A stretch of 64,000 nucleotides of DNA from a virus (IMGVR_UViG_3300035698_014070:1-64000); one strand, 5' to 3'. Positions 16,671-52,495 are shown, counted from the first letter of the stretch. The notes: generated from the sequence alone by a model not told the origin. Numbers and translations are program-made.

Positions 16671-16877
16671 ATGACTAAAAGAGAAATGACACGTACAGAA
16701 ATTCAAGCAGAATTAAAGCGAATGAATATAGATATGAAGCCTATGTACGAGAAGTTAGGTATCTTATTACAGTTATATGGAGTAGGTCATGAAGATGAAA
16801 TTAGTAGTGCTATTGCAGAAGAGATAAGAAAAGAAATAAGAAAGCATCTTAAGAAAGTAAGTTTAAGAGATTTTTAA
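16671..16877 (+). CDS. Small helical protein ending SLRDF (SLRDI-tag relative)
   Basis: This 68-residue, entirely helical, charged protein ends VSLRDF, one substitution away from the SLRDI C-terminus shared by many proteins downstream. It is the leftmost member of that group and precedes a 224-bp intergenic region. No catalytic motif. Confidence 0.5.
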   Translation: MTKREMTRTEIQAELKRMNIDMKPMYEKLGILLQLYGVGHEDEISSAIAEEIRKEIRKHLKKVSLRDF

Positions 16878-17101
16878 TAGATATAAGTAAATAATTTTTC
16901 CTTTCCTCCTTTGAGCTCTCTGTCTTTAATTAGGTAGCAGGCTTTTTTACTAACTTTTGTTAATATAGATCTAACTTTCATTTATATATTATATAGATAG
17001 AGTATAAAGTGAAAAGTTAACAAGATAGAAAAAATAATGAGAAAAAAGAGTCATAAAGCTTTATGCAGTAAGTAGTTAAGGAACGTACAGGAGAACAAAG
17101 C
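16878..17101 (+). promoter_or_regulatory. Intergenic region with AT-rich promoter-like motif
   Basis: These 224 bases hold no convincing gene (a 12-codon ATG frame exists near 17037). A pyrimidine-rich stretch follows the stop codon. At about 16979-17006 lies TTTATATATTATATAGATAG followed by AGT; a similar AT core with ATTATATAGAGAGT precedes the metallopeptidase gene (12133-12155). Both sit at gene-block starts and could be phage-specific promoters. An AGGAGAA site precedes the next gene. Confidence 0.3.
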
Positions 17102-17338
17102 ATGTGTAAAGAAAAAGAATTTTGTCCCTATTGTGGCACAGAATTAACAGAAAAGATGATTGAAAGTATAAATGTAGGGTATACAAATACATTGGATTTT
17201 GCGCATTTAGCTGATGAAGATGTACCTAGTTCTGATAGTGTTTATATAAGAATGAGAGATGCAGGATTGTTTAAGTCAGAAAAAGATTTGCAGAAAATAG
17301 AATCAGATGATATAGGTAGAGTTGAAGATATATTATAA
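17102..17338 (+). CDS. Small protein with N-terminal zinc knuckle
   Basis: This 78-residue protein starts with CKEKEFCPYCGTEL, half of a zinc ribbon; only one further-defined CxxC is present. It is acidic at its C-terminus. Starts after AGGAGAAC. No family is recognised. Confidence 0.5.
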   Translation: MCKEKEFCPYCGTELTEKMIESINVGYTNTLDFAHLADEDVPSSDSVYIRMRDAGLFKSEKDLQKIESDDIGRVEDIL

Positions 17339-17544
17339 TGGAATCATTTGTAATAACTACAGAAGAAACAAACGATATTATACATTCAGCATGTATAGAT
17401 ACATACTTTTGCGCTAATACAATGCAGAATGATATAGCAAGACAGATAGAGCATTGTGAGACACACATACCCTGGGATAGGCCTGAGTATTATAATCCAT
17501 GGAACAGGCTAGCACCGCCACATCTTAAAGTTAAACGATGGTAA
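17338..17544 (+). CDS. Hypothetical protein
   Basis: This 68-residue protein overlaps the previous stop (TAATG) and the next start. It has a tryptophan/proline-rich tail (IPWDRPEYYNPWNRLAPPH). No function is recognised. Confidence 0.45.
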   Translation: MESFVITTEETNDIIHSACIDTYFCANTMQNDIARQIEHCETHIPWDRPEYYNPWNRLAPPHLKVKRW

Positions 17545-18044
17545 TGAAGAGCTTAATAAAAGAATTACAGCAAGTACTGACAGAATCTACAGGACTGAAG
17601 AAAGGCGACACGGTGTACAATGTCTACACGTCCAAAGATTTTGGTTCTATAAACGAAGGGCAGTTTTCTATAGTATTCTTTATAACAGAGCACAGTGAGG
17701 CTTTACTCTGGGCAAAAGAAAACGTAAGATATAACAATGCCGATGCGGTTTACATACGTGAATGCGAATTGCTTACAGACAGAATTGCACAAGTAGAAGA
17801 TATAATGCCATACATTGAAGAAGAGAGTGCATTTGAATCAGTGTGGAATGAAGATTATTTTCATGTAGGTACATGGGAAGATAAAGCTAGACATCTAATT
17901 AGCAGGATTAAGAGAAACTGGGATGCTATAGAGTTTACGCGGCACCACGACGATATAGAAAATATGGTAATGGTATTTGATGTAGATAAGAATGTTAAGT
18001 TATTGAAAGAGCCGTATAAGTATAATAGTTTAAGAGATATATAG
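17544..18044 (+). CDS. SLRDI-tag protein with CTS-like N-terminus
   Basis: From ATG 17544 the product has 166 residues (an in-frame ATG lies six bases earlier). It begins MKSLIKELQQVLTE, an amphipathic helix with an LTE sequence like the (L/I)xE sites cut by T4 prohead protease, and ends YNSLRDI. The middle is a globular alpha/beta region (GDTVYNVYTSKDFGSINEGQ; VYIRECELLTDRI) that looks like a small ADP-ribosyltransferase- or toxin-like fold, which I cannot confirm. It lies two genes before the portal gene. The likely role is a protein packaged into the head; that is inference. Confidence 0.6.
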   Translation: MKSLIKELQQVLTESTGLKKGDTVYNVYTSKDFGSINEGQFSIVFFITEHSEALLWAKENVRYNNADAVYIRECELLTDRIAQVEDIMPYIEEESAFESVWNEDYFHVGTWEDKARHLISRIKRNWDAIEFTRHHDDIENMVMVFDVDKNVKLLKEPYKYNSLRDI

Positions 18045-18055
18045 GAGAACTTAGT

Positions 18056-18424
18056 ATGAATGATAGTTTTGATTGGCCTAGTAGTAAGACATATGCAGAT
18101 TTCTGTACAAGATTAAAAGAATTTAATGATACAGATTCGTATATTAGCGGAGAACTTAATGTATGGCTTGGTGATGTTGATATGACTTTAAAGGTACATG
18201 ATGGAGCGCATACTGTTTCTTTCTATTCAGAATTAGGTGCTCGTGAAGTATCAGAAACGAAAGCATCTGTAAAGAAAGATAAGATAAAAGATATGCTTGA
18301 ACAAATGAAAGAAGGAATTAATATACTTATAGACAACATTGATGAAGCAGTTGAAGAAGTAGTTAAACAGAATGCAGCATATAATGAGTGGGATAAAGAG
18401 TATACAGAAGAAAGTAAATTGTAA
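18056..18424 (+). CDS. Hypothetical acidic protein next to portal
   Basis: This 122-residue protein has strands in its first half (SGELNVWLGDVDMTLKVHDGAHTV) and a long helix in the second (KDMLEQMKEGINILIDNID). It follows AGGAGAAC and overlaps the portal start by one base. It has no SLRDI end. Function unknown. Confidence 0.55.
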   Translation: MNDSFDWPSSKTYADFCTRLKEFNDTDSYISGELNVWLGDVDMTLKVHDGAHTVSFYSELGAREVSETKASVKKDKIKDMLEQMKEGINILIDNIDEAVEEVVKQNAAYNEWDKEYTEESKL

Positions 18425-20184
18425 TGCAGAATCCGCTGAATTTAATTGCTAAGATCTTCAAGAAACCTGGTTCTGTACCAGCTGCCGATTTGATTTCAGT
18501 AATGAGAGATCTGCAGAATAATCTTGCGCAGATGCAGACACCAGATAATAAGACTAAGATGTCTAAAGAAGATCTTAGTAAGATATTATTGATGGGTTCA
18601 CCTTCCACTTCAATGGATGATACTGTATTCAATAGCATGGTTATAAACTATGAGCGCAGATCTGTTTATAAAGAATTAGATTTAAGCTTATCCCACTGGA
18701 TGATGTCATCTGCTCTCGAATGCTACAGCGATTACGCCACCGTATATTCGCCTATACATGATTCTACAGTCTGGTGTACAGGTGATACAAAGTATGTTTC
18801 TAAGATAACAAACATGTTAGATCAGATAGGAGTAGAAGAGAAGATATTTGATTGGGCATGGACAATTGCTGCATATGGAGATTTGTTTGTAGAGTTAGTA
18901 GCAGATCCATCGCTTGGTATTATAAACATAATGGATGATGACCATCCTATTAATGTATCTAGACTTGATAGAAATGGAGTATTAAACGGATTCTTTAGAA
19001 CACCATTAGGAGAAGTAGGGCAGGAAGTAACGGCACAATTATTGCCACCATGGAAGTTTGTGCACTTTAGATTGTTATCAACTAAAAGAAAGAGACCATT
19101 GTACGGTGATCCTAATTTCACAGAGTATAGAACTATGCACTTATTGTCTCCTGATGCTAGAAGAATATCAACAGCATACGGAACAAGCGTATTGATGAAC
19201 GCGTTGCCTATATATAAACGTTTACGTATGGCTGAAGATAGTCTGTTACTTACACGTTTAACTCGCGGTATTAAACGTTACATATATAAGGTCAAGGTAG
19301 ATGGCTCTAATATAGATTCTATTTCAGCCATTATTGATGGTTATAAATCATTGTTGAAGACGGCTAGAGCGATAAACAGCAGTTCTTCTAGTCCATACTT
19401 TGAAGAGCGGTATGACCCAATGGGTTCATTAGAAGATTTAATTGTGCCAGTGTGGGATAATGTGAATGATTTAGAAGTAGAAGAAATTGGTGGTGATGCA
19501 GATATACGATGGATTGTGGATATAGAGGAACTTCGCAATCAATTAGCTTCAGCATTACGTACTCCTTTATCTTTGTTAGGTGGATTTGTAGATGAGGCAA
19601 CTGGTGCTTTAGGCAGTTCATCTATAGAGAAGCTAGATATGCGGTTTGCTAGATCAGCTCGTCGTCTTCAGCGTGCTTTGATTGTTGGTATAACTAGAAT
19701 GGCACAAATAGATTTAGCATATCAAGGGCTGGATCCAGATACAAAATTGTTTGATATACATATGCCTGAAACATCTACTGCAGAAGAAGAGCAATTAAGA
19801 GAGTCATTAGATACAGCAATAGATGTGGTTGATAAAGTATTAATGACGTACGAGTCTGTGTTTGGTAAAGACTTGAATAAAGCAAAGCTGTTAGATTATT
19901 TAAATCAGAAGTTTCTGAAACTCAGTGATTTGAACTTAACTGATTATGTAACAGCGTATGAAGGAAGTGATAGAGATAAGCAATTGAGTTTGATTGATGA
20001 TGCTAAAGACGAGTTAGTGCATAATAAGGGTAGGCTTGCTAGAACAGCTAAGTCATTAGATTTTAAAGCACTAACAGAAACAAAAGAAGGTAAAGCTTTG
20101 TGGGAATTGAATAACCCAGATCGTGCAAGTATTAAGATAAAGATAAACGCTTCTAAGAAAAGAACTAAAGGTTCAAAGAAATGA
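18424..20184 (+). CDS. Portal protein (T4 gp20-like)
   Basis: This 586-residue protein forms the dodecameric ring at the capsid vertex through which DNA passes. Portal hallmarks include LSHWMMSSALECYSDYAT near 80-97, EKIFDWAWTIAAYGDLFVEL near 139-158, PPWKFVHFRLL near 205-215 and the clip/stem region with LRTPLSLLGGFVDEATGALGSSSIEK near 378-403 followed by helices. The basic C-terminus (KKRTKGSKK) is exposed to DNA in other portals. It starts the head-gene block, and a SLRDI gene overlaps its stop. Confidence 0.9.
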   Translation: MQNPLNLIAKIFKKPGSVPAADLISVMRDLQNNLAQMQTPDNKTKMSKEDLSKILLMGSPSTSMDDTVFNSMVINYERRSVYKELDLSLSHWMMSSALECYSDYATVYSPIHDSTVWCTGDTKYVSKITNMLDQIGVEEKIFDWAWTIAAYGDLFVELVADPSLGIINIMDDDHPINVSRLDRNGVLNGFFRTPLGEVGQEVTAQLLPPWKFVHFRLLSTKRKRPLYGDPNFTEYRTMHLLSPDARRISTAYGTSVLMNALPIYKRLRMAEDSLLLTRLTRGIKRYIYKVKVDGSNIDSISAIIDGYKSLLKTARAINSSSSSPYFEERYDPMGSLEDLIVPVWDNVNDLEVEEIGGDADIRWIVDIEELRNQLASALRTPLSLLGGFVDEATGALGSSSIEKLDMRFARSARRLQRALIVGITRMAQIDLAYQGLDPDTKLFDIHMPETSTAEEEQLRESLDTAIDVVDKVLMTYESVFGKDLNKAKLLDYLNQKFLKLSDLNLTDYVTAYEGSDRDKQLSLIDDAKDELVHNKGRLARTAKSLDFKALTETKEGKALWELNNPDRASIKIKINASKKRTKGSKK

Positions 20185-20462
20185 AAGAGCTAATAGAACA
20201 ATTAATAAATGTATTAGAATCAAAATATGGAACAGGCGATGTTGTAGTATTTACTTTAAAAAATTTACATAGCTCTGCTTATGCGGGTACTAAAATGAAA
20301 GAGCATGATGGTAAAAAATGTACAATAGTTAAATATTTACATACAGATTATGATTTTAATGTTTCATTCTATGATATAGAATTTGATGATGGATATACTC
20401 TAAGTAACGCAGGTGATTACATGTTAAAGCCTTATGTAAATCCTAGTTTGAGAGATATATAA
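20181..20462 (+). CDS. SLRDI-tag protein with CTS-like N-terminus
   Basis: This 93-residue protein begins MKELIEQLINVLESKYG and ends NPSLRDI. Between them is a small strand-rich domain (GDVVVFTLKNL; KKCTIVKYLHTDYDFNVSFYDIEFDDGYTL) like a Tudor/KOW-type barrel. It overlaps the portal stop by ATGA and the next start by TAATG. Confidence 0.6.
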   Translation: MKELIEQLINVLESKYGTGDVVVFTLKNLHSSAYAGTKMKEHDGKKCTIVKYLHTDYDFNVSFYDIEFDDGYTLSNAGDYMLKPYVNPSLRDI

Positions 20463-20737
20463 TGTCAGATGATAAGTTAGCACAGGATATACAGGATATT
20501 ATACTAGGAAAGCGTGTGCTAACATCAGAGAGTGATCAAGTATATGACCAACCTATAATACGTAAAGAGAATACAAGTGACCAAGTAAATGAAGATATGT
20601 CTTTTGGAGAAATGTTAGAACAAGTTTGTAATGATAGTGTGCAGCAAAATAAAGAAGATGATAAGATAACTGATGAAATGTGTAATGAGGTTATAAGTAA
20701 ATGTAACATGAGTCTTATGAAGGATTTACTAAAATGA
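20462..20737 (+). CDS. Acidic helical hypothetical protein
   Basis: This 91-residue acidic protein has no visible domain; it is low in aromatics and likely partly disordered. It overlaps both neighbours. No SLRDI end. It may be a head-core or chaperone-type protein by position only. Confidence 0.45.
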   Translation: MSDDKLAQDIQDIILGKRVLTSESDQVYDQPIIRKENTSDQVNEDMSFGEMLEQVCNDSVQQNKEDDKITDEMCNEVISKCNMSLMKDLLK

Positions 20738-20964: not shown

Positions 20965-21342
20965 ATGGATACATTGTTAGAACAAGTAAATAAAGCGTTT
21001 AGAGAAACTAACGAAGCTAGACCAGCTAATGCAGCTGTAGTAAAAGCAGAATTAAAGCGCGTATTTATTGACGCGCAATATACGATACGTGATCTTCATG
21101 ATAGTACTTCTCCAGCATTTGACGCAGTAGATAATTCTATGAATTTTATTATACCAGTAAGAAATAATAGAAAATATACTGAAGAAGTTTTAGCAGAAGT
21201 TGGTTTAGCAGAAGAATATACTGAACTTATCTTTAAAAAACAGGTAATAGCGGATCAGCTAAAAGATACAGAAGATTTAGAAATATTCGCAATTAAATTA
21301 GATCAAGCAATAAAGAATATGAGTTCGCTTAGAGATATATAA
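20965..21342 (+). CDS. SLRDI-tag helical protein
   Basis: This 125-residue helical protein begins MDTLLEQVNKAFRETNE and ends MSSLRDI. The middle has no catalytic signature. It starts directly after the upstream stop and overlaps the next start by TAATG. Confidence 0.6.
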   Translation: MDTLLEQVNKAFRETNEARPANAAVVKAELKRVFIDAQYTIRDLHDSTSPAFDAVDNSMNFIIPVRNNRKYTEEVLAEVGLAEEYTELIFKKQVIADQLKDTEDLEIFAIKLDQAIKNMSSLRDI

Positions 21343-22715: not shown

Positions 22716-23030
22716 GTATTAATAGAACAACTTGAAGAAATAATGCTTACTGAAGAAAGCAGAATAGAGTTACTTGATCAGTGGTTTTCGAAGTATGAAC
22801 GGTGGACTGATGAAATAGAACGTTTTTCTAGAAGGTTGATGGATGATTTTTATTGGATGGTGAAAAAACCAGAGCTAGAAATGAATAATGATAAAGAATT
22901 AACTAAGGCAGTAAAAGATATACATGATACAGCACAAAAAATTAATTTAAGCACTAATCCTTTATTTGATATGATTCGTAAAACAGAAAAACAGTTTAAA
23001 CAAAAAGCAGCTTCTTTAAGAGATATATAA
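22712..23030 (+). CDS. SLRDI-tag helical protein, start frameshifted
   Basis: The intact frame runs from ATG 22743 (95 residues) and ends AASLRDI. The same frame continues upstream without a start to GTA 22716 and encodes VLIEQLEEIMLTEES, clearly the CTS-like N-terminus of its relatives. The 17 bases TTAATAGAACAACTTGA (22719-22735) are identical to those in the gene at 24180. Removing the single A at 22718 would restore ATG AGT TTA ATA GAA (MSLIEQL...) from ATG 22712. So either the start is frameshifted or one base is surplus. The body is helical. Confidence 0.55.
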
Positions 23031-23407: not shown

Positions 23408-23434
23408 TGAATGATAATTTTACAGGAGTTTACT

Positions 23435-24187
23435 ATGAATAATTTGATGAGTTCACTGATGGAAAGCGCTATGCATGGCGCAAATGATGTGTTCACTGTG
23501 CAGAAGTTTCGGTTCAGTGGACAAATCGTTGATTCTATTTCCTTTAAAGAAAAGGATGTAGCTTTAGAGTTTGCTAGTGATGTGGTTAAGTCTATGCCTT
23601 CTTCTAAGTATTTTGTTGAGGTGCATGAAGTAACAGATGAAGGTGGTTCTAATACGCTTTGGAGTAGTGAAGCTAAAGATCCTGACAAGAAGACGAAGAA
23701 GCCTGGTAAGGTGCCGACTAAGACGGATGCTGAAGGTGATGGATCAATAACAAATATAAAGGCACCCAACGAGGCTAAGTCTGGTGATAAAAAGGAAAAG
23801 AAACCTGGTAAGGTACCAGTGAAGACTGATGCAAAAGATGATACAGGTAGTGTGAAGAATATTAAAGCACCGAATGAAGGTGTGTTACCAGATCATGCTG
23901 AGCCAACTGATAAGAAGATTCAGGCTATGGTTGAAGAAGAAGATACTGAAGAGAAATGCGATGAAGAAAGTGAAGATGATGACGAAGAGAATGTTGATGA
24001 AGCAAGTAAAAAGCAAACATTAAGTGAGTTTACAGAGTATATTAAATCAATATATGGATTTGAAGAAGGAGAATCTGAAGAAGATTTTGATGAAGCGGTT
24101 TATGTTGCAATGAAAGAACTGCATGGCGACGAAATTTACGATGCATTATTAGATGCGTTTACTGCTGGTAAGAATACTAATGGATAA
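23435..24187 (+). CDS. Head core/scaffold-like protein with HAEPTDKK motif
   Basis: I choose ATG 23435 because AGGAG precedes it; 250 residues. It begins MNNLMSSLMESAMHG. A basic/proline segment is duplicated (KKPGKVPTKTDAEGDGS... NIKAPNE near 88-113 and again near 122-148). Then LPDHAEPTDKKIQAM (151-165) is nearly identical to a segment of the scaffold-like protein at 34861, and an acidic run follows. The shared motif suggests both bind the same partner in the prohead. Charged composition is typical of prohead core proteins. Confidence 0.55.
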   Translation: MNNLMSSLMESAMHGANDVFTVQKFRFSGQIVDSISFKEKDVALEFASDVVKSMPSSKYFVEVHEVTDEGGSNTLWSSEAKDPDKKTKKPGKVPTKTDAEGDGSITNIKAPNEAKSGDKKEKKPGKVPVKTDAKDDTGSVKNIKAPNEGVLPDHAEPTDKKIQAMVEEEDTEEKCDEESEDDDEENVDEASKKQTLSEFTEYIKSIYGFEEGESEEDFDEAVYVAMKELHGDEIYDALLDAFTAGKNTNG

Positions 24188-24515
24188 GTTAATAGAACAA
24201 CTTGAGAGAAGTTTAAATGAAGAAGGTGAATTGAATACACCTGAATCATACTTAATGAAACGAGCATCAGATATTTCAGATAAATTAGATACAATTGAAG
24301 ATGCGCTTGCAGATATACACAATGATATATATGATATTACGATGGCTTTACCACCAGGTGGACCTACTTATAAAAAATGGGGTAATCAGTTTTACAATTT
24401 AAAAATAGAAGCAGGAAATGCTTTTGAACATGGAGATAACTTTTTATACCGTTTGAATAAGTTTATAGATAAGTTTATGAGTGAGTACAAAGCTATCACA
24501 TTGAGAGACATATGA
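24180..24515 (+). CDS. SLRDI-type (TLRDI) tag helical protein
   Basis: The start is ATG 24180 (111 residues). It begins MDKLIEQLERSLNEEGE with an LNE site and ends ITLRDI. The body is a helical bundle without motifs. It overlaps both neighbours (ATGA at the 3' end). Confidence 0.6.
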   Translation: MDKLIEQLERSLNEEGELNTPESYLMKRASDISDKLDTIEDALADIHNDIYDITMALPPGGPTYKKWGNQFYNLKIEAGNAFEHGDNFLYRLNKFIDKFMSEYKAITLRDI

Positions 24516-24886
24516 AAGAACTATTAGAAAAGTTAAGTAAAGTGATTAAAGCATCTCTTGATACAGATGCAGAGTATATAGAAGAGTATGTAGACGCTTT
24601 AGAAACTGTAATAGATCGGTATACTAATGCACAATATAGTATAGAACGTGCGGTAAATGCACTATGTCATGCTGTTGATGGTGTGAAGATAGGGTTAGAA
24701 GATCGTAAAGATCAAAAGTCAATTGAGTTTATTGAAGAGGTTTTTGGTAACATCACTGAGATAGATAACAACAACGCTGATTTGGTTAACAATGAAAGAC
24801 TTAAAATTATGGTTGAGTCTATAGATGGTATTAGAAAAGCTTTAGCTGATATGGTTTTAAGTAAGAAAAGTTTACGGGATATATAA
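24512..24886 (+). CDS. SLRDI-tag helical protein
   Basis: This 124-residue protein begins MKELLEKLSKVIKASLD and ends KKSLRDI. All helical. It is the last gene before a terminator-like region and a strong promoter, hence the 3' end of the portal-proximal block. Confidence 0.6.
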   Translation: MKELLEKLSKVIKASLDTDAEYIEEYVDALETVIDRYTNAQYSIERAVNALCHAVDGVKIGLEDRKDQKSIEFIEEVFGNITEIDNNNADLVNNERLKIMVESIDGIRKALADMVLSKKSLRDI

Positions 24887-24907
24887 ATGCATAATTTATT
24901 TGTAATT

Positions 24908-34860: not shown

Positions 34861-36075
34861 ATGAGTAGTGAACTTTTAAAAAGAATTGTAGAGAATAGAG
34901 ATACCATTTTTGGAGAAATTAATAATACGTTATCTCCAAGGCAAATTAGAGAACATATTCGTAGTATGTATAAAAAGGTTGCAGAAGATGTTGGTTTAAC
35001 TTCAGAAGAAGTAAAGTACTTTGTTCATTATATGTCCAAGAACTTTGCTAATGATTTTACAAAAATATCTGAAGATAAGATATATCATTATGCATCGTTA
35101 TTGCTTGAAGGTAAACTTCCTAATCATGCTGAACCTACTGATAAAAAGGTTCAAGCTATGATAGAAAAAGATGATGATGAAGAGGAAGAAGAAGAAGAAG
35201 AGGTTATTGATGATGAAGTAGAAGATGATGAAAGTGATGAAGAGCTTCCACCTGAAGGTGCTAGTTTACGTGATATAGATAGTGAAGGCGGTGGTGGCGA
35301 TGCTCCTGATATGAGTGATGCAGAACCAAGTGGTGCTGAAGAAGAAGTCGAAATAGATAAAGAGTACTTTGGTAGTACTGGTGATGATGGCTTTTATTAC
35401 ATGGTTGGCTCTGAAGAAGAAGGTGCTGATGATATTAAAATACTGAACCAAGAAGGTGATGAAGTTTATTCTGCAATTGCTAAAGAAATGGATATACAAG
35501 ATATTACTGCAGTGATTGTAGATGCAATTACAGATCTTGAAATGGATGCAGTATCATATGATATTATTGTGAAGTATATTTTCCCGAAACTTCAGGATGA
35601 TGATGAAGAAAAAGAAGATGAAGAAGAAGTTCCTACTGATGAGGAAATGCCTACTGACGAAGAGATGCCTGAAGAAGATGAAGAAATTCCTATGGAATCA
35701 GTGAATAAGGCGAATGAAACTAAAAAAGCTGATAAAGCTAAGAAAGATAAAGCTGATAAAATTAAGAAAGATAAGAAAGACAAAGCTGATAAAGTCAAAA
35801 AAGATAAAAAAGATAAGGCTGAAAAAGCTAAAGCTAAGAAAGCTAAAAAAGATGAGAGTGTAATAGAACACGAAGTTAATGGTGAAAAACATACTGGATG
35901 TATTTTAGAAAATACTTCTGATTTTACTCGTGTTAAAGTAGATAACAAAGAATATAAATTAAACGTACCTTTTGCTGAAGTATATAAAGACGAACACGGT
36001 AACATTACTAACGAGTGCATGAAAGAATTGATTGAAGATTTTGTAGCTCTTAGTGTTACATCTGAAAGTAAGTAA
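34861..36075 (+). CDS. Prohead scaffold/core-like protein with internal SLRDI
   Basis: This 404-residue protein has a helical N-terminus, the LPNHAEPTDKKVQAM motif (86-100) shared with the protein at 23435, an acidic run, then GASLRDIDSEGGG with SLRDI at 135-139, another folded part, acidic repeats, a highly basic Lys/Ala/Asp segment of about 50 residues (AKKDKADKIKKDKKDKAD type) and a small C-terminal domain. Its alternating charge and position just before protease and capsid genes fit a prohead core protein. The internal SLRDI suggests a former fusion or a shared binding peptide. Confidence 0.6.
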   Translation: MSSELLKRIVENRDTIFGEINNTLSPRQIREHIRSMYKKVAEDVGLTSEEVKYFVHYMSKNFANDFTKISEDKIYHYASLLLEGKLPNHAEPTDKKVQAMIEKDDDEEEEEEEEVIDDEVEDDESDEELPPEGASLRDIDSEGGGGDAPDMSDAEPSGAEEEVEIDKEYFGSTGDDGFYYMVGSEEEGADDIKILNQEGDEVYSAIAKEMDIQDITAVIVDAITDLEMDAVSYDIIVKYIFPKLQDDDEEKEDEEEVPTDEEMPTDEEMPEEDEEIPMESVNKANETKKADKAKKDKADKIKKDKKDKADKVKKDKKDKAEKAKAKKAKKDESVIEHEVNGEKHTGCILENTSDFTRVKVDNKEYKLNVPFAEVYKDEHGNITNECMKELIEDFVALSVTSESK

Positions 36076-36092
36076 TAATAGGAGATATAAAG

Positions 36093-37694
36093 ATGACTCA
36101 GTTACGCGAAGACATTATAGAAAATTATCAGTTACTTGAAACTGATACAACTAAGCTGCCTGATGGTGTGTTATGTCGAGTGCAATATCCAATATGCAAT
36201 ATTGGTATATTGAATCGCAATAACCGGGTGTATGAGAAGGAATTGTGGGATGGTGTGTTAGCTAATAAAGAAGTAGCGCAAAAGCTAGAGAAGCGTTCTC
36301 TTTATGGTCAGGCTGAACATCCCAAAGAAACACAGAGTAATCTTGAAAAGACTTCTCATGTCATACATAGTATGAATGTAAACGAAGATGGATCTAAAAT
36401 TTCTCAGACTATGGATGTTTTGGATACACCATATGGACGGATTATAGACACACTCTTACGTGCAGGTTGTGGTGTTGGCGTATCTACACGAGCAGAAGGT
36501 GAATTAGAAGAATGCACTGATGAAAGTAATGGAAGTAAATATTTTCGCGTAAAACCTGAGTCATATGATTATGTTACAACCGATTTTACGGCTGATCCTA
36601 GTACTATTGATCCATATCCTGAGTCTGTGCAGCGCGATGTTGTTAGAGAAATAGCAAAAGACTTACATGATAATAGTATAGATAGAGCTTTTGCAATGCC
36701 TTTACTTGAATCAATGCAAGTAGATGAAGCAAAAGAATTGTTGAAAGAAAATAAAGAAAAACCTTTGTTTGAAGACTTTGACAGTGCTTTTGATTGGTTT
36801 AAAGATTATTTTAATACCATGGAAGAAGGAAAAGATAAAGATAAAATTCGTGAAATAATTACTGAAAGCAACTTTGATCCTAATGAAATAATTCCAGCAC
36901 AAGCATCAACATCTATTGAAGATACAGAAAAAGAAATAGAAGAAGTAGAAGATGAAGTTGAGAAAGATATTAAAGATGGTGAAACTCAGAAAGATACGAC
37001 TGAAGAAACTGTTGATGATGCTGAAGAATCTATAAATCCATTACTAGCTGTGAAAGATGCACTTATTAAAGAAGCATCTACTCGTGCTGAATTAGAAAAA
37101 GCAATAGAGATTATTGAAGAACATCAGTGCGATGAAAATAATGTAGCTATTGCAGTTTGTAAGATTAAAAATCTACAACAGAAATTAAAAGAACATAGTA
37201 AATCATATGATGCAAGAACGAAAGCATTACAAACTGCGCTAACTTGTAATGATAAGAAAACAGTTAAAAAAGTAAACGCTTTAAAGATTTCTTTAAAAGA
37301 ATATTTTAATAAATATAAAACACTTGATGAAGTTACAAAAAAGAAATTAGATAAATTAGAACAATGTAATAAAAAAATTGTAACAGAACATAAAGATCGT
37401 GTTATAATGATACAAGAAGAATGTGATAAGAAGATTGTTTCTAGTTACATCACTATGAAATTAGAGCAATCTGGTTTAAAACTGGCAGATAAATCTCGAG
37501 CACTTCTTGAAGATTGTAAAACTGTTGGTGAAGCGGAAACTATGTTGTCTGACTTACGATATACTATGCGTGAAAATGCCCTTCATCATCATTCAGGTGT
37601 ATCTGAAGAAGCGATTATTATTGAATCGACAACTAGTAAATTAGAAGATGAAATCGTAAAGAATGTTAGGTCTTCTTTGGCCGGCATGTCTTGA
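36093..37694 (+). CDS. Prohead protease fused to scaffold-like C-terminus (T4 gp21-like)
   Basis: This 533-residue protein follows AGGAGATATA. Its first ~190 residues match phage prohead proteases of the herpes assemblin-like fold: GILNRNNRVYEKELW near 37-51, SLYGQAEHPK near 68-77 (catalytic His) and GVGVSTRAEGELEE near 127-140 (catalytic Ser). The remainder is long coiled coil and acidic (EDTEKEIEEVEDEVEKDI), as in protease-scaffold fusions. It would cleave the core and capsid N-termini on maturation and be removed itself. The N-terminal MTQLREDIIENYQLLE could be its own targeting helix. Confidence 0.82.
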   Translation: MTQLREDIIENYQLLETDTTKLPDGVLCRVQYPICNIGILNRNNRVYEKELWDGVLANKEVAQKLEKRSLYGQAEHPKETQSNLEKTSHVIHSMNVNEDGSKISQTMDVLDTPYGRIIDTLLRAGCGVGVSTRAEGELEECTDESNGSKYFRVKPESYDYVTTDFTADPSTIDPYPESVQRDVVREIAKDLHDNSIDRAFAMPLLESMQVDEAKELLKENKEKPLFEDFDSAFDWFKDYFNTMEEGKDKDKIREIITESNFDPNEIIPAQASTSIEDTEKEIEEVEDEVEKDIKDGETQKDTTEETVDDAEESINPLLAVKDALIKEASTRAELEKAIEIIEEHQCDENNVAIAVCKIKNLQQKLKEHSKSYDARTKALQTALTCNDKKTVKKVNALKISLKEYFNKYKTLDEVTKKKLDKLEQCNKKIVTEHKDRVIMIQEECDKKIVSSYITMKLEQSGLKLADKSRALLEDCKTVGEAETMLSDLRYTMRENALHHHSGVSEEAIIIESTTSKLEDEIVKNVRSSLAGMS

Positions 37695-37712
37695 TATTAA
37701 GAGGTGATTATT

Positions 37713-39746: not shown

Positions 39747-40302
39747 CAAGTTTGAAATTGATCGCTATGGGCTTACTGCTATTGCAGCTGCTGCGACTGG
39801 TTCGAGTGCTGCGACAGCGATTGGTACTTGGACTGGTACTCCTACTACTGGTGAGTCTTGGGTATTCAAGAAATACGAGTGGTTGGATAAATTGGAAGTA
39901 GGTAATAACAATATTATCAGCAAAACAAAGAGAGCTAATGCTAACTTTATTATCTGCGGTAATAATGTTGCTCGTCTGATTCGTCAGATGGAAGGGCATT
40001 TTGTTCCTGCTTCTGGTCTTGATAAGAATATTCCTACTGGTCCATTTGAGTTAGGTACATTGAATGGTCGTATGGTTATACAAGATCCGTTTATGACGAC
40101 AGATCGTTATATCATGGGATTCCGCGGTGATAACTATCTGTTTGCTGGCGCTATATACGCTCCGTATATTCCGCTGTTTGCAACGCCTACAGTTATTCTT
40201 GGAAATCTGCAAGCACAAAAGGGCTTTATGAGTTCTGCTGGTTTCAAGGTAATTAATGCGGGTATGTATACGTATGGTGATATCGATTTGTCCGGTATTT
40301 AA
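39747..40302 (+). CDS. Major capsid protein, exon 2
   Basis: Exon 2 starts at C39747, completing the split codon AT-C (Ile), and reads KFEIDRYGLTAIAAAATG onward to TAA 40302. The junction then reads GGEIKFEIDRYG, which matches the spacing of the EVMLEINR segment of T4 gp23. Later parts (ANANFIICGNNVARLI, GTLNGRMVIQDPF, YIMGFRGDNYLFAGAIYAPYIPLF, GFMSSAGFKVINAGMYTYGDI) are the C-terminal half of the gp23 fold. The open frame upstream from ATG 39685 is intron sequence and should not be read as a protein start. Confidence 0.85.
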
Positions 40303-41960: not shown

Positions 41961-42048
41961 ATGTCTATAGGTACATACAAAAGAACAGTTGAACATAAGA
42001 AAAGAATTTGATATATTAAGAGATAAAAGTTCTTTAAGAGATATTTAA
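41961..42048 (+). pseudogene. Mini SLRDI peptide gene, frameshifted
   Basis: From ATG 41961 the frame stops after 16 codons (TGA 42009-42011). Dropping one A from the A4 run at 41979-41982 opens MSIGTYKEQLNIRKEF, then DILRDKSSLRDI, ending at TAA 42046-42048 directly before the next ATG. The corrected product would be 28 residues, a nearly bare SLRDI tag. Either decayed, slippage-dependent, or a one-base sequencing surplus. Confidence 0.4.
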
Positions 42049-42683
42049 TGATACAATTTATTAATATTATTATTGAAGCTACTCATGGTGAGATACAGCA
42101 AAAGCAGCGTACTATAACAAAGTTGTTTCCACAGTTTCCTGATAGGTTACAAAAAGTAGCAGATAATGGTGGTGTTAAATTAGAAGAAATGGAGCCAGAT
42201 AAGTGGCACTTTTATGTAGCAAGTGGTACAGAAAAAGGAACAGAGTATCATAATTATGTGAAGTTTGTAAACCTGAAACCATTGCTTCGTAAATATATTG
42301 CGAGTGACGCTGTATGGAATAAAGCAGGTAGTGCAGTTGATTATCAAAAGTTAGCACGTTTGTTATTAGATAATATGGATTTAAGATTATTATGCACGTG
42401 TCCCGCGTTTCAATATTGGGGATCTGCTTATACATTAAGTCGTTCTAAATATGATGCAAAGTATGGTAGAAGAGAGCGTAGACCTCCAAATATACGAAAT
42501 CCTAAAGAACATGGTTCTATGTGTAAACATATGCACCAAGTTATGCGCGTGTTACCATTTTATAATAGTACATTCGCAAAATATTTAAAAGAGTATCATA
42601 AAACTTATATTGAACAACTTACTAAGAAAGCTTTAAAGCTAAAAGAAAAGCCAGAAGAAGATAAAGAGAAAAAAGAAAAGTAA
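42048..42683 (+). CDS. SWIM-like zinc-finger protein with out-of-frame SLRDI end
   Basis: This 211-residue protein begins MIQFINIIIEATHGE, a CTS-like helix. Residues about 110-165 hold CTCPAF...CKHMHQV, the CxCx(n)CxH pattern of SWIM zinc fingers. The frame ends EEDKEKKEK at TAA. Removing one A from the A6 run at 42669-42674 continues it as KKKSKSLRDI to TAA 42702, two bases before the next start. This suggests the protein belongs to the SLRDI group. Function unknown; SWIM modules bind DNA or protein. Confidence 0.55.
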   Translation: MIQFINIIIEATHGEIQQKQRTITKLFPQFPDRLQKVADNGGVKLEEMEPDKWHFYVASGTEKGTEYHNYVKFVNLKPLLRKYIASDAVWNKAGSAVDYQKLARLLLDNMDLRLLCTCPAFQYWGSAYTLSRSKYDAKYGRRERRPPNIRNPKEHGSMCKHMHQVMRVLPFYNSTFAKYLKEYHKTYIEQLTKKALKLKEKPEEDKEKKEK

Positions 42684-42703
42684 ATCTTTAAGAGATATTT
42701 AAT

Positions 42704-44077
42704 ATGATAAATATACATGAACTATTACAACGAGTATTTGAAGCAGATATTGTACAACCAGAGCGTCCTCAACCAATAGCTCCACCTGCTCCTAATAGAA
42801 CTACACCACCTGAGCGTAGAAAAAGTCCTATTAAACCTATACCTGGTAAACATCCAAAACCTAAAGGTAATAAAGATGTAGAGCTGTTTTTAAAGAAACG
42901 CGGTATTGTAAATGAGATGGCTTTTGATCCAGGTGCGTTTAAAGATATTACTGATCCAAGCAAACGAGCGTGGATAGAAACCGGTACAGAAGATCTTAGT
43001 GAGATATTACCAGATGCAACAGATTCGCAACAAAGTTATCTTGAGATGGTTACATCAAAATCATATATAGAAATGTTAAATCGTGTTGAACGTTATACTG
43101 GCTTAAATGTGGATGATATTGATGTTCCTCAATTAATTGGTTTATTGTTTCAATCAATGAATACTGCTGCAGAAATAGAAAAAAACAATATTAATGCTTT
43201 AGAAAATATTGCGTTAATGAGCGTATTAAGTTTAGACGAATTTTCAATGGTGAAAGATTTATATGATAACGATGAAGTAAAATTTGATATAGAATTAATG
43301 AGTAGAGATAAACCGCTTGATATTGACTTAATGCAGCAGCATGACGAAGAACAAAATCCAGATGATAATGGATTGACAGACAATGAAGAAACAAATCTAG
43401 AATTGGCAGATGAGCTTATTAGTTCTGATAACACTAAAATGAAAAGACGTTTAGCAGATCTTTTAATACAAGGAAATGCTGTAAGTAAATTGTATCTATT
43501 TAATGTAGTTCGTGATAAATTGAATGCTATAGACGAAAGACTTCCTGCTTTATATGGAATAGCTGCTACAATGACGCAGCTTGGTTATTGGGTAACTCCA
43601 TTTGGTATTGAAGAAATGTCAGCATCAGCAGAAGAAATGACAGGTGGAGCAGAAGAAGTAATTCCTAGTGGAGATATATACGTAATTAAAGCACGTGGAC
43701 AAATATTTCCAATGTTAGTGCATGAAATTGTTAAAGGAATATATGAATACATTTCTTTAAACAATGATATTGGTACAGCCAGTGGTGGGTTACGTCAAGA
43801 AACCGAAGATATTATTGTTGGACCAGAGATTGCGAAGACATTAAAATCTTATGTTCCACTTGATCAGCAAGAGTTATTGCCATTAGTTCATAAATTATTT
43901 TTAGAACTATCACAATCTGATATTAAGAATGTACTCGCAAAAAATTCACAAGGTAAAAGTACTATGGATGAATTGCTTAAACAGGCTGAAGAGCAGTGGG
44001 ATGAATATAATAAAGAAGAAAATGAGTATGAAGATGAAGGTGAAGAACCCGAAGAGTTTGGAGAACAAGGTGAATAA
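42704..44077 (+). CDS. Hypothetical head-region protein, Pro-rich N-terminus, acidic C-terminus
   Basis: This 457-residue protein begins MINIHELLQRVFEADI, again a short amphipathic helix, followed by a proline-rich linker (residues 17-52). The middle is helical and the last ~30 residues are strongly acidic. No enzyme motif. An internal head or core protein is plausible from charge and place. Confidence 0.45.
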   Translation: MINIHELLQRVFEADIVQPERPQPIAPPAPNRTTPPERRKSPIKPIPGKHPKPKGNKDVELFLKKRGIVNEMAFDPGAFKDITDPSKRAWIETGTEDLSEILPDATDSQQSYLEMVTSKSYIEMLNRVERYTGLNVDDIDVPQLIGLLFQSMNTAAEIEKNNINALENIALMSVLSLDEFSMVKDLYDNDEVKFDIELMSRDKPLDIDLMQQHDEEQNPDDNGLTDNEETNLELADELISSDNTKMKRRLADLLIQGNAVSKLYLFNVVRDKLNAIDERLPALYGIAATMTQLGYWVTPFGIEEMSASAEEMTGGAEEVIPSGDIYVIKARGQIFPMLVHEIVKGIYEYISLNNDIGTASGGLRQETEDIIVGPEIAKTLKSYVPLDQQELLPLVHKLFLELSQSDIKNVLAKNSQGKSTMDELLKQAEEQWDEYNKEENEYEDEGEEPEEFGEQGE

Positions 44078-45373: not shown

Positions 45374-45374
45374 C

Positions 45375-46907: not shown

Positions 46908-46916
46908 AGATATATT

Positions 46917-48207: not shown

Positions 48208-48216
48208 AATTAATAA

Positions 48217-50667
48217 ATGTTTAATGAATTATACGAAAATTTAGCTTCTGTTTTAGAGAATAATGGGCATGAGTACTCTAATGTTCAGATAACAATAACA
48301 GGTGAACTTTCTAAAAAAATGCTTGATTATGGTAAAAGTATACCTGATGAAGAAATTTATACTGATGAGAATGATCCATCGTATGGTAGAGAAAAAGATA
48401 CACATGTTACTGTGCGGTATGGATTAACAACAGACAATCCATCTGAATTACAAAAAGCTTTTACAGATTTTGGCATAATAAAATTAAAAATGAATAATAT
48501 ATCTGTTTTTGAGACAGATGATTATGCTATAATTAAAATAGATATTGATAGCAATGATTTACATAAAGCGAATGAATTAGTTGGTGAAACAGAAGATGTA
48601 CCTGGTGAAACATATAAAGAGTACAAACCGCATGCTACAATTGCTTATGTAAAGAAAGGTGCTGGAAAGAAATACATTGATAATAAAACATTTAATGGTG
48701 AAGAAATAACTGTTAATACAATTGAATTGAATGATAGGAACGATACTAAACACACGATAAATTTATCTCGAGATATGTCTGCAGAATGTAAGTTGCAGAA
48801 GATCCATAAGGCGACTGTGAGTGAAAATGCAGACATTAACGAATTAGATTGGAAAAAGACAGCTAAGGTTGCGGCTGCTACAACAGCAGTAGGATTGGTT
48901 GGATTGCTAGGCCAGCAAAAAGCATATAGAAATTATGATAAAGGACTTATAGCGAACCAATCTGCTTCTGCTGTTACTAAATCTGCTGAGCAACCTGAAG
49001 TTCAGCAGAAACTGGCAAAGGAAACTAACGTAAATGAAATAGATATAGATAAGATTGCACAAATAGAGTCATCTAATAATCCTACCGCTGTTAATAAAAG
49101 AACAGGTACACGCGGGTTATGCCAGTTTATGGAGCCAACTTGGAATGATGTTATTAAAAAGATGAAAGTTGATTGGACATGGGAAGATGCTTTTGATCCT
49201 AATAAAAACAGAACAGCAGCTGAGTTTTATATAAACAAAGACATACCACGTATGTTACAATATTATAAGATAGAGGATACAAATGAAACAAGACTTGCGT
49301 CTTATAACTGGGGTATTGGTAATGTGAAAAAAGCAGTTCGTAAGTATGGAAAAGATTGGATTAATCACATTCCTACAGAAACTCGTAATTATATTCAGAA
49401 GTATAATGCATTACAAGAAGTAATTCAGCATGATGGTGGAAACTTTCAGCACTTTTTTGTTGATGCAAAAGGTTACGCAATACAAGTAGCAAGTCATGTA
49501 GAGTATGTAAAGAAAAAACTTGGTACTAATTATGCTGATGAAAAAGCAGTTAATAAGTATATGAAAAAGAATAAACTGATACGTTTAGGGCAGACTGAAG
49601 ATGTTTTGTTTTTCGTATCAGTTGCCAGTAAAGTAACAGATGTTCAAATAAAAGTATTAAGAAAGCTTCTTCGTTCTGGTACAACATTGTATTACGATAT
49701 ATTTAAAGGAACTAAACGTATTAATTCTGGTTCAGGATTTAAAGAGTTTTTAGAAGATCTTGAATATTATAAAATGTATAAGCCTAAAACAAACGAATCT
49801 ACTATTGATTTTCCTAGAGAAGATTTACCTACGGAGATATGGACAAAAGAGAATGGTGAATATGTTTTAAGAGATGATGTGTATAATAAGATCGTGAAAA
49901 CACTGGCACAATATCCTAACGTTGATTTAAATAAATTAGCTACAACGATGCACATAACTGGTTCAATCGGGACTAATCAGCATGATGATGATTGTGATTT
50001 GGATGTACATATATTACCATTAGAAGGTAAAGCAGATAATCATTTACAAAAAGATGTATTTAAGTGGTTTAATGAAAACAGAGACAAAATTGATGGATAC
50101 GTTGGTGAACATCCTATTGAAGTATATATTCAGTTAGATCCACAGCAAGAATTGTTTGCAGATGCGGCGTATGATGTTGGTAATAAGAGATGGTTAAAGG
50201 GTCCTAAGAAAGCTGCTTCGTCTTATAATCCGTATGAAGAGTTTAAAGAATTGTTAGTAGATGTAGTAAGTGATGCAGAAGAAGCTGATAAGGTATTGGG
50301 TGAACTTAAGCGAGATACAATAGATTATACAACTATTGTTCGCGCGATGCGCTACCTAAGTACAGGTGATAAAGAACACTTACACGATATGCTATTATCA
50401 AAGTCGGTTGAGATTGATGCAGATATACGTGCGTTGATTAAACAAAAAGGAGAGTGGACAAACGCTCGCCATATGTCATCGCAAGCCACACCCGAAGATG
50501 CCTTAAAAGATGTAGACATTGCTAAAAGATGGAAAGATGAAAATGCAAAATTTAAATTTATGAATCGCTACAATTACGTCAAGCTTATAAAAGATCTTGA
50601 AGATATGATTAAAGATGAAGAGCTTTCTGATAGAGAAATAAATCTTATACAAAGAACTTTAACATGA
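48217..50667 (+). CDS. Three-domain protein: 2H phosphoesterase, lytic transglycosylase, nucleotidyltransferase-like
   Basis: This 816-residue protein has three enzyme-like parts. Residues 1-185 carry two HxT(V/I) motifs, HVTV (63-66) and HATI (139-142), as in 2H phosphoesterases. Residues 215-232 are hydrophobic. Residues 278-400 are a lysozyme-like transglycosylase (IAQIESSNNPTAVN with Glu284, GTRGLCQFMEPTWNDV, RLASYNWGIGNVKKAV). Residues about 575-650 have GSIGTNQHDDDCDLDVHI and HPIEVYIQL, a Pol beta-like nucleotidyltransferase pattern (GS...DxD). It begins MFNELYENLASVLE, like other head-block proteins. A virion-carried, injected multi-enzyme is plausible; all three activities are inferred. 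Confidence 0.7.
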   Translation: MFNELYENLASVLENNGHEYSNVQITITGELSKKMLDYGKSIPDEEIYTDENDPSYGREKDTHVTVRYGLTTDNPSELQKAFTDFGIIKLKMNNISVFETDDYAIIKIDIDSNDLHKANELVGETEDVPGETYKEYKPHATIAYVKKGAGKKYIDNKTFNGEEITVNTIELNDRNDTKHTINLSRDMSAECKLQKIHKATVSENADINELDWKKTAKVAAATTAVGLVGLLGQQKAYRNYDKGLIANQSASAVTKSAEQPEVQQKLAKETNVNEIDIDKIAQIESSNNPTAVNKRTGTRGLCQFMEPTWNDVIKKMKVDWTWEDAFDPNKNRTAAEFYINKDIPRMLQYYKIEDTNETRLASYNWGIGNVKKAVRKYGKDWINHIPTETRNYIQKYNALQEVIQHDGGNFQHFFVDAKGYAIQVASHVEYVKKKLGTNYADEKAVNKYMKKNKLIRLGQTEDVLFFVSVASKVTDVQIKVLRKLLRSGTTLYYDIFKGTKRINSGSGFKEFLEDLEYYKMYKPKTNESTIDFPREDLPTEIWTKENGEYVLRDDVYNKIVKTLAQYPNVDLNKLATTMHITGSIGTNQHDDDCDLDVHILPLEGKADNHLQKDVFKWFNENRDKIDGYVGEHPIEVYIQLDPQQELFADAAYDVGNKRWLKGPKKAASSYNPYEEFKELLVDVVSDAEEADKVLGELKRDTIDYTTIVRAMRYLSTGDKEHLHDMLLSKSVEIDADIRALIKQKGEWTNARHMSSQATPEDALKDVDIAKRWKDENAKFKFMNRYNYVKLIKDLEDMIKDEELSDREINLIQRTLT

Positions 50668-50744
50668 AAAAATTAATTGAACAACTTGAAAAATGTGTTA
50701 CTGAAATAAATCCTATAAGTGAAAAGGTGAAAATTTATGGATAA
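50664..50744 (+). CDS. 26-residue peptide made of a CTS-like helix
   Basis: ATG 50664 overlaps the previous stop by ATGA and the frame ends at TAA 50744, overlapping the next start. The peptide begins MKKLIEQLEKCVTE and ends ISEKVKIYG. It is essentially only the N-terminal helix found on the SLRDI proteins. It may be a translated remnant, a coupling peptide or a small functional peptide. Confidence 0.4.
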   Translation: MKKLIEQLEKCVTEINPISEKVKIYG

Positions 50745-51387
50745 GTTAGTTGAATATCTTATTAAAGAAGTAGAGAAGCAAGCTTCAGATGAAGAGTTTT
50801 TAGATAAAGTTGTTGATGGAACATACACATTAAACTCTGATGGCAGTTATGATGTAGTTGGTAATGTAAAAGTGTTTAAAACGCAATCAACTTTTATTTT
50901 TGTAAAATTTAGAAAAGTAAGTGGAAATTTTATTTGTAGTTATAATGACTTAACAACATTAGAAGGCGCACCTAAAGAAGTAGGTGGAAATTTTACTTGT
51001 AACAACAATATCTTAACAACATTAGAAGGCGCACCTAAAGAAGTAGGTGGAAATTTTACTTGTAGTTATAATGACTTAACAACATTAGAAGGCGCACCTA
51101 AAGAAGTAGGTGGAAATTTTACTTGTAGTTATAATGACTTAACAACATTAGAAGGCGCACCTAAAGAAGTAGGTGGAAATTTTACTTGTAAAAACAATTA
51201 CTTAACAACATTAGAAGGCGCACCTAAAGAAGTAGGTGGAAATTTTACTTGTAAAAACAATGACTTAACAACATTAGAAGGATTAAATTATGTTAAAGGT
51301 AAAATTATTTATAATAATAATCCTATGAATTGTGAAGAAGAAATAAAAAAGCACAAACAAAGAAAAGCATCACTTAGAGATATATAA
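50737..51387 (+). CDS. SLRDI-tag leucine-rich-repeat protein
   Basis: This 216-residue protein begins MDKLVEYLIKEVEKQ (CTS-like) and ends KASLRDI. Its middle is about five LRR units of 21 residues (LTTLEGAPKEVGGNFTCSYN), almost identical to each other, unlike the diverged repeats at 46917. The repeat array suggests recent tandem duplication. It shows that the N- and C-terminal peptides are attached to quite different cores. Confidence 0.65.
   Translation: MDKLVEYLIKEVEKQASDEEFLDKVVDGTYTLNSDGSYDVVGNVKVFKTQSTFIFVKFRKVSGNFICSYNDLTTLEGAPKEVGGNFTCNNNILTTLEGAPKEVGGNFTCSYNDLTTLEGAPKEVGGNFTCSYNDLTTLEGAPKEVGGNFTCKNNYLTTLEGAPKEVGGNFTCKNNDLTTLEGLNYVKGKIIYNNNPMNCEEEIKKHKQRKASLRDI
50930..51290 (+). repeat. 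63-bp tandem repeat array encoding LRR units
   Basis: A 63-bp unit (CTTAACAACATTAGAAGGCG, then CACCTAAAGAAGTAGGTGGAAATTTTACTTGT plus a variable 11-base segment) occurs about five times with very few differences outside the variable part (AGTTATAATGA, AACAACAATAT, AAAAACAATTA). It is in frame. The variable part falls on exposed residues of the repeat. Confidence 0.85.
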
Positions 51388-51388
51388 A

Positions 51389-51859
51389 ATGTCTAAAATG
51401 ATTCCTAATAGATCTATTGCAGCGTTTAGAAATTTTAATGACGTAAGCGTAAATAATTTCGGCTTTGAAGTAGATTTGTATATACCTAATAATGTATACG
51501 CAGATGTTGAAGATAATGATGCGTACTCTAAACCTGGAGATTACGAATACGATCATTATACTGCTATGGTATTTATAGATTGGTCGCCAAACATATATAG
51601 ATTACGAAATATTGGTATGTATACAGAAGGTGAGTTACCTATACTAGCTCGTTTTAAAACAACAGCGACTAATGATACAGGCGTGTCTGAAAGTGTTGAT
51701 ATTGTAAGGCATAGTTATATTAAGGTACCAACACAGTACGTGCCTGATAAAACGAGTGTCACTGATGAGTTTGATATAGTAGATGTATTGACATTTAATA
51801 TGCATGATGCGGCGTTAGCTAAACAGTACAAGTTGGCGCCAAGGAGAACGTTAGACTAA
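51389..51859 (+). CDS. Putative connector or tail-completion protein
   Basis: This 156-residue beta-rich protein starts two bases after the SLRDI stop. Segments VDLYIPNNVYADVEDNDAY and HYTAMVFIDWSPNIYRLRNI suggest a small beta-barrel. It lies 1.3 kb before the sheath gene, among neck genes. Family not recognised. Confidence 0.45.
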   Translation: MSKMIPNRSIAAFRNFNDVSVNNFGFEVDLYIPNNVYADVEDNDAYSKPGDYEYDHYTAMVFIDWSPNIYRLRNIGMYTEGELPILARFKTTATNDTGVSESVDIVRHSYIKVPTQYVPDKTSVTDEFDIVDVLTFNMHDAALAKQYKLAPRRTLD

Positions 51860-52062
51860 TGCAGAAAGTAACAAACTTAACGAATGAAAGTATACATTTA
51901 TATATTTCAGGAATGGTTAAGCTAATTCTTGGTCCACATGAGAGTATAACTGTGGATATTAGTGGTATAATGAATTTGCCTGAAATACGCTCTAAGATTT
52001 TGATTGGTGAAAACTTGACAGAAGTAAATCCAGTAAGTGGAAAGATGCCTTTGTATGGATAA
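51859..52062 (+). CDS. Small hypothetical beta protein
   Basis: This 67-residue protein overlaps the previous stop (TAATG). VTNLTNESIHLYISGMVKLILGPHESITVDI is a single strand-rich unit like small virion proteins in sheath-proximal clusters. The next gene starts inside its last codons. Confidence 0.5.
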   Translation: MQKVTNLTNESIHLYISGMVKLILGPHESITVDISGIMNLPEIRSKILIGENLTEVNPVSGKMPLYG

Positions 52063-52495
52063 GTTAATTAAACAATTAATCGATGAAATGGCAAAATCCA
52101 GTAAAAAAACATTAGCTCAAATGGATTTAAAAGAAATTCCAGAGATAAGTAAAGTGAAACATTTAAATCAATTAGCTGTGTGGGCAGCTAGACTTGGTTA
52201 TCCAGAGCTTATTCATCTTGCATTAGATAATGGAGCTAAGTTAGAACAAAAAGATATTGAACAATTAGCTATGCACGCGCTAAGATATAAATCTATTCCT
52301 ATGGCTGAAATAGCAGCAGATTTAGGTTGGGACAAAGATATGGATATTGCTGATGATAGAGCTGGATTAGATTCTGAAAATATTGATTGGCAAATAAAAA
52401 AGTGTAAAAATAATAAAACATCAAATATTGATTTTTACATATGGTTACGTGATAAATTTAATATAGTACCACTTGGTAGTTTAAGAGATATTTAA
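52055..52495 (+). CDS. SLRDI-tag ankyrin-like protein
   Basis: From ATG 52055 the product has 146 residues. It begins MDKLIKQLIDEMAKSSKK and ends GSLRDI. The middle (LNQLAVWAARLGYPELIHLALDNGAKLEQ, then IEQLAMHALRYKSIPMAEIAADLG) has the helix-turn-helix rhythm of ankyrin repeats. It overlaps both neighbours. Again a tag pair around a protein-binding core. Confidence 0.6.
   Translation: MDKLIKQLIDEMAKSSKKTLAQMDLKEIPEISKVKHLNQLAVWAARLGYPELIHLALDNGAKLEQKDIEQLAMHALRYKSIPMAEIAADLGWDKDMDIADDRAGLDSENIDWQIKKCKNNKTSNIDFYIWLRDKFNIVPLGSLRDI

Follow-up and report, generated by a model that had tools for sequence, protein, structure and literature searches.

The record studied here is an IMG/VR virus, a 74-kb fragment (74,228 bases in total) of a T4-like myophage, and the window, by which we mean the whole stretch of DNA analysed, covers 64,000 nucleotides of it. 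The tagged genes described below are surrounded by a T4-type head system with an S77 protease, within a structural module that comprises a PF07230 portal, a PF03420 protease, a phrog_138 major capsid protein, a scaffold-like protein and a PF04984 sheath. The virus is distant from isolated phages, with a portal identity of at most 28% among the matches listed; in IMG/VR, 40 portal relatives were found, the closer ones being 40-53% identical.

Of the window's roughly 97 plus-strand genes, nine terminate in [S/T]LRD[I/F], placed directly before TAA, TAG or TGA (Table 1). Calculated from the composition of the record's own proteins, the chance of this motif is 3.3e-6 per site, which gives 3.2e-4 expected occurrences at the 97 plus-strand C-termini, against the nine observed. 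The residues preceding SLRDI are varied and often flexible, and the tag itself is short and hydrophobic-ended. Within the record, the tagged genes are restricted to the structural block, where they adjoin the portal, scaffold, protease, capsid and neck genes, and none of the genes between 64 and 74 kb carries the tag at its C-terminus. A GLHDF ending at 16643 is a weak tenth candidate and was left out of the count.

A check of the sequence confirmed that all nine genes listed in the initial annotation end as it described, and found at residues 135-139 the internal copy that it had placed in the scaffold-like protein 34861-36075. This is the one internal SLRDI of the record (0.026 expected in the whole proteome); it could be due to chance, and it is not conserved in the scaffolds of relatives. 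The two copies in shifted frames reported at 42048 and 42702 also exist, but no more than 25 and 19 codons of open frame precede them, so that they are not the C-termini of called genes. In the first of the two, an A run shorter by one base would yield a 28-aa tagged ORF.

Table 1. Tagged genes, additional copies of the tag and neighbouring head genes.
Feature	Position	Strand	C-terminal end	N-terminus	Remarks
Tagged 68-aa protein	16671..16877	+	SLRDF	not of targeting type	no start codon after the stop
Tagged 168-aa ORFan	17538..18044	+	SLRDI, then TAG	MKSLIKEL	next gene with its own GGAG
Portal protein, T4 gp20-type	18424..20184	+			PF07230, E 7.6e-25; phrog_1497
Tagged 93-aa protein	20181..20462	+	SLRDI	MKELIEQL	directly 3' of the portal gene, the position of T4 gene 67
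Tagged 125-aa ORFan	20965..21342	+	SLRDI	MDTLLEQV	
Tagged 95-aa protein	22743..23030	+	SLRDI	not of targeting type	
Tagged protein	24180..24515	+	TLRDI	MDKLIEQL	likely start 24180, not 24153
Tagged 124-aa protein	24512..24886	+	SLRDI	MKELLEKL	Arg codon of the tag is CGG
Internal SLRDI	35263..35277	+			acidic disordered part of scaffold-like protein 34861-36075; Arg codon CGT
S77 prohead protease, T4 gp21-type	36093..37694	+			PF03420, E 1e-6; extra C-terminal region
Out-of-frame SLRDI copy	42031..42048	+			just upstream of gene 42048-42683; 25-codon open frame
Out-of-frame SLRDI copy	42685..42702	+			just upstream of gene 42704-44077; +1 relative to 42048-42683
Tagged 216-aa LRR protein	50737..51387	+	SLRDI	MDKLVEYL	
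Tagged ORFan	52055..52495	+	SLRDI	MDKLIKQL	likely start 52055, not 52037; upstream of a neck-region gene

Conservation of the tag as a protein sequence

When the nine tags are compared pairwise, their codons differ by 65 synonymous versus 16 nonsynonymous changes. Serine is encoded by AGT, TCT, TCA or TCG and leucine by TTA, TTG or CTT, and all three stop codons are used after the tags. The similarity of the 45 bases located 5' of the tags does not exceed that of random gene ends, the flanking DNA being unrelated, and the DNA identity of the tags is 0.737, against 0.695 expected for the same peptides with codons drawn at genome usage (P 0.08). A DNA scan for AGTTTAAGAGATATATAATG returned one chance match, at a place where there is no gene. 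Because codons are swapped, stops vary, flanks are unrelated and the diversity is close to the protein expectation, a DNA repeat and an embedded ribosome-binding site are both disfavoured as the main cause of the tag.

According to the latter explanation, TTAAGAGATATATAATG would combine a Shine-Dalgarno sequence with the start of an overlapping gene that comes next, and SLRDI would be no more than the translation of this sequence. A start does lie at most 4 bases from the stop in six of the nine tags (8 of 11 copies if a bare ATG is counted), arginine is encoded by AGA in eight of nine tags compared with a genome-wide fraction of 0.42, and both out-of-frame copies sit directly upstream of genes. 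However, the serine and leucine codons vary synonymously outside the Shine-Dalgarno core (AGT/TCN and TTA/TTG/CTT) with a diversity that fits protein constraint, three tags are devoid of a dependent start (no start after 16877, a separate GGAG after 18044 and only a 36-codon frame after 24886), and the scaffold copy is internal, with CGT for arginine. The tags do not present the DNA-level conservation with a dependent following start by which an embedded site is recognised, and we consider this explanation improbable and less likely than a docking peptide. With AGA favoured for arginine and six stops overlapping or almost reaching a called gene's start, the AGAGA of the tags may still double as a ribosome-binding site: the tag is selected as a protein, with a secondary translational role possible.

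A recent shuffling of a DNA module, moving a 3' end between genes, could also have spread a peptide having no function. Such a process would account for the presence of the tag on ORFans and for LRR homologues that differ precisely at the tail, but the unrelated flanks and the diversified codons mean that the tags do not stem from recent DNA copying, which leaves this scenario with hardly any probability. We take SLRDI to be a true short linear motif at the C-terminus of fast-evolving accessory proteins of a T4-like phage.

Unrelated cores and a common N-terminal helix

After removal of the last 14 residues, none of the 36 pairs formed by the nine tagged proteins is detectably homologous, and paralogy was rejected on this ground. 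The cores had been described in the initial annotation as different from each other, as they indeed are, and its LRR identity for 50737-51387 was borne out by homology, whereas the helical, Tudor-like and ankyrin-like labels received no significant Pfam support and the SWIM-like protein (42048-42683) is itself without an in-frame tag. Apart from the LRR protein, the tagged cores had no relatives in the loci searched; 17538-18044, 20965-21342 and 52055-52495 were searched further and remained ORFans in these searches too. For 17538-18044, a single-sequence structure prediction made without alignment was unusable (pLDDT 35.7), and no support was found for an identity as ADP-ribosyltransferase. 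The LRR homologues of 50737-51387 come from G002 (L016, 49.7 kb), one of the 40 portal relatives, which presents broad synteny with the record from the portal through the tail genes. They align to near the C-terminus but end in EVKGxIxV, and therefore the tail differs on homologous cores.

The tag is associated with a particular N-terminus. Seven of the nine tagged proteins start with M[KD]xL[ILV][EK]x[LV], versus none of the 88 untagged genes of the record (Fisher 2-3e-9), with the reservation that this strict pattern was composed after the tagged N-termini had been seen. The fairer figure is that of a looser pattern, itself shaped by G002, which matches 7/9 tagged versus 7/88 untagged genes (P 8e-6). 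Two tagged proteins are without the helix and several helix-bearing genes of the head block are without the tag; in G002, MKKLLE or a similar sequence opens 17 proteins, of which many are LRR paralogues and others are different. In T4, N-terminal helices of a similar type are found in gp67 (MEGLIEAIKS) and gp22 (MLKEQLIAEA), and the internal proteins IPII and IPIII have the N-terminus MKTYQEFIAE in common. Each of the nine tagged proteins has an [LIVMF]xE within its first 30 residues, comparable to the [LI]xE after which the T4 prohead protease cuts, but such sites are common.

Because most of them begin with an amphipathic helix that resembles the N-termini of T4 prohead core and internal proteins, the tagged proteins most likely belong to the core of the prohead or to its internal (cargo) proteins, combining an N-terminal targeting helix with a C-terminal docking peptide, a reading which we hold to be about evenly poised between right and wrong. 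Alternatively, a host or phage protease may read the C-terminal peptide as a degradation or processing signal that sets the lifetime or the maturation of the protein. C-terminal degradation tags are known in bacteria, and a short, hydrophobic-ended C-terminal tag following varied and often flexible residues would be suited to this use. On the other hand, a cut between LRD and I would shorten the protein by a single residue and does not correspond to the [LI]xE site recognised by T4-type proteases, and neither the coupling to the N-terminal helix nor the scaffold copy would be explained. We judge such a signal unlikely, and less likely than the docking peptide.

Shared tails in relatives and in other large phages

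The surveys used longest-ORF gene calls made by a simple script. When the 40 portal relatives were searched with a degenerate form of the tag, the single match lay on the reverse strand of G019 and had Cys as its first codon, compared with two matches for a reversed control pattern, and no SLRDI tail was found in 30 sheath-containing loci. In long scans of 19 related contigs, at most one or two genes had 4/5 C-terminal residues in common, except in G002, where four LRR genes with the shared EVKGxIxV end are explained by paralogy. A single-sequence scan with the capsid protein gave no matches. In a portal scan of genome contigs, one locus was obtained, on a contig binned as an Asgard MAG.

Given that no SLRDI tail is shared by the 40 portal relatives or the 30 sheath loci, inheritance of the tag from known relatives was rejected. 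SLRDI is private to this lineage, an absence elsewhere that holds at about 50% identity and not for its own genus. The enrichment of SLRDI C-termini in related genomes, on which the initial annotation had made its proposal depend, was not observed. Even so the tag stands, since comparable tags with other sequences are found in other large phages. Relatives with the same head module do without SLRDI, so that packaging in this group does not require the tag.

The tails of other phages were reached by following the LRR homologues into annotated phages, to which the same unbiased C-terminal scan was applied. In LR756501, a 735 kb phage of which 400 kb was sampled, DPYGE is found near the C-terminus of 19 proteins (DPYGE[ED]xW in 18 of them) with 0/171 homologous core pairs; these carriers are unrelated, include membrane-like and 843-aa proteins and show no link to targeting-type N-termini. 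Sixteen other proteins of this phage end around RTKLIDKML with 4/120 homologous core pairs and, having a longer stretch in common, may partly be paralogues. In the isolated Vibrio phage VB_VaC_SRILMA (PP083314), PEx[FLM][IV] terminates 62 genes and a looser form 76, only 5 of 2850 pairs being homologous. The carriers are mostly below 150 aa and lie in clusters of small hypothetical genes, 33 of the 62 tails do not overlap a start, and the strict tail is kept in 13 of 15 tagged ortholog pairs between phiKT1024 and VB_VaC_SRILMA. In both LR756501 and VB_VaC_SRILMA, the DNA identity of the tails equals the protein expectation (0.834 vs 0.837; 0.684 vs 0.682). No C-terminal cluster was detected in the scanned stretches of T4, phiKZ, Lak-A1 and LR756502.

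Like SLRDI, the PExFI, DPYGEExW and RTKLIDKML tails are conserved as protein at the C-terminus of proteins that, within one phage lineage, are mostly small and for the most part lack homology to each other. They differ from it in being genome-specific peptides of unrelated sequence, with more members, that are not restricted to the head module. Packaging cannot be assumed as the general answer, because several of these tails sit outside head modules, and they may do something other than SLRDI.

These tails make a serious rival of the idea that SLRDI is unrelated to the head and brings accessory proteins to some machinery of the host or the phage, such as a polymerase, a clamp, a membrane or a compartment. 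PExFI on more than 60 genes, mostly for small proteins and clustered among small hypothetical genes, and DPYGEExW on 19 unrelated proteins, where it shows no link to a targeting N-terminus, would both suit such a hub. Being unrelated in sequence, however, the other tails need not share the function of SLRDI, which in this record occurs only in the structural block and goes together with a T4-core-like N-terminus. The polymerase, clamp loader and helicase of W03 are without the tail at their C-terminus. A hub of this type is a possible but rather doubtful function for SLRDI. More generally, and tentatively, some large phages may mark numerous unrelated, mostly small proteins by a C-terminal peptide specific to their lineage. 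Such an undescribed sorting code would let new genes join a pathway through a tail of 5-10 residues, with a dedicated receptor for each tail.

Prohead loading and comparison with known systems

Returning to the docking peptide, the proposal made in the initial annotation of a sorting or docking function fits the protein-level conservation, the location among head genes, the helix on 7/9 proteins and the scaffold copy, and is at odds with the relatives that have no shared SLRDI tail. The N-terminal helix would target the tagged proteins to the core of the assembling prohead, and the SLRDI peptide would dock on one common site, perhaps one that the scaffold's internal SLRDI uses as well, with the capsid inner face, the portal and the protease as candidates. 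Once packaged, the tagged proteins could leave the head along with the DNA and act in the host infected next.

The closest known packaging signals are the capsid targeting sequence of T4 and the N-terminal signal of P1 DarB. The internal proteins of T4 form a diverse set which has only the targeting sequence in common (PMC3012670). The resemblance lies in one short peptide shared by diverse, fast-evolving head proteins of T4 type and in the similar hydrophobic N-terminal helices on 7/9 tagged proteins, though not in the MKTYQEFIAE sequence itself; the T4 sequence is N-terminal and cut off by the prohead protease, whereas SLRDI is C-terminal. No C-terminal counterpart was found in T4 or in the literature consulted. 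For the proposed mechanism, the closest analogue is the cargo-loading peptide of encapsulins, which is short, usually C-terminal and by itself enough to carry unrelated cargo into a shell of HK97 fold (PMC7355545). The tagged set likewise has a short C-terminal peptide common to unrelated proteins; encapsulins, however, are not phages with portal and tail, and we claim neither membership nor a sequence relationship, the binding of SLRDI to a capsid protein being putative. No mention of the SLRDI tail was found in the open-access literature, its novelty being provisional, and DPYGEE was found there only in an unrelated yeast peptide paper; no description of the PExFI, DPYGEExW or RTKLIDKML tails was encountered in the literature searched, and nothing relevant on C-terminal phage tags appeared in open-access titles and abstracts.

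Most small phage proteins have neither a known function nor relatives, and a shared tail groups them into one pathway from sequence alone. It also provides a handle for finding the partner through peptide pull-down, tail deletion or reporter fusion. The general idea can already be put to the test at the bench, because isolated Vibrio phages carry PExFI tails. If the tag loads cargo into heads, SLRDI would mirror, at the C-terminus, the targeting sequence of T4.

Out-of-frame SLRDI copies and the shared scaffold stretch

Both out-of-frame copies of SLRDI lie beside A runs, and a single-base indel would bring each of them into frame; they may reflect an assembly error, decay or frameshifting. 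The scaffold-like protein and the 23411-24187 region of the window have in common a stretch like P[ND]HAEPTDKK[VI]QAM[IV]E, which takes the form of EGKxP-type variants in the scaffolds of relatives. The portal proteins of two relatives, L011 and L012, carry insertions that look like inteins. Another portal relative, L111, is found on a 179-kb contig (JAHQJS010000001.1) binned as Candidatus Borrarchaeum (Asgard archaea), which may represent a virus of this archaeon or a mis-binning.

The major capsid gene and the 816-aa protein

The major capsid gene appears to be split, by an intron or as a split gene, and its two parts match the two halves of a single capsid protein of 483-496 aa in the relatives. 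An Rfam search of this region (37704-40302) gave no match. The N-terminal part of the 816-aa protein showed a weak match to 2H-phosphoesterase/Acb1-like proteins, and the protein is possibly an anti-defence cargo.

Coordinates of the features
Feature	Sequence	Coordinates	Remarks
Scaffold-like protein	window	34861-36075	
Capsid-matching parts	window	37704-38675, 39685-40302	
TnsA-like endonuclease ORF	window	38741-39688	PF08722, E 9e-13; between the capsid-matching parts
Out-of-frame SLRDI copies	window	42031-42048, 42685-42702	
816-aa protein	window	48217-50667	SLT transglycosylase domain
Tandem cluster	LR756501.1	L145:31142-38648	C-termini RTKLIDKMLNE

C-terminal tails in other phages

Two different tails, each common to several proteins, were found in the 735-kb phage LR756501.1 (loci L145, L163-L182); one of them, DPYGEExW, is carried by 19 unrelated proteins, and the other, RTKLIDKMLNE, by the tandem cluster at L145:31142-38648. 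In Vibrio phage VB_VaC_SRILMA (PP083314.1; loci L193-L202), PEx[FLM][IV] forms the C-terminus of more than 60 proteins, mostly small, with homology largely absent between their cores, and this tail is kept between orthologues of VB_VaC_SRILMA and phiKT1024 (OM249648; L208).
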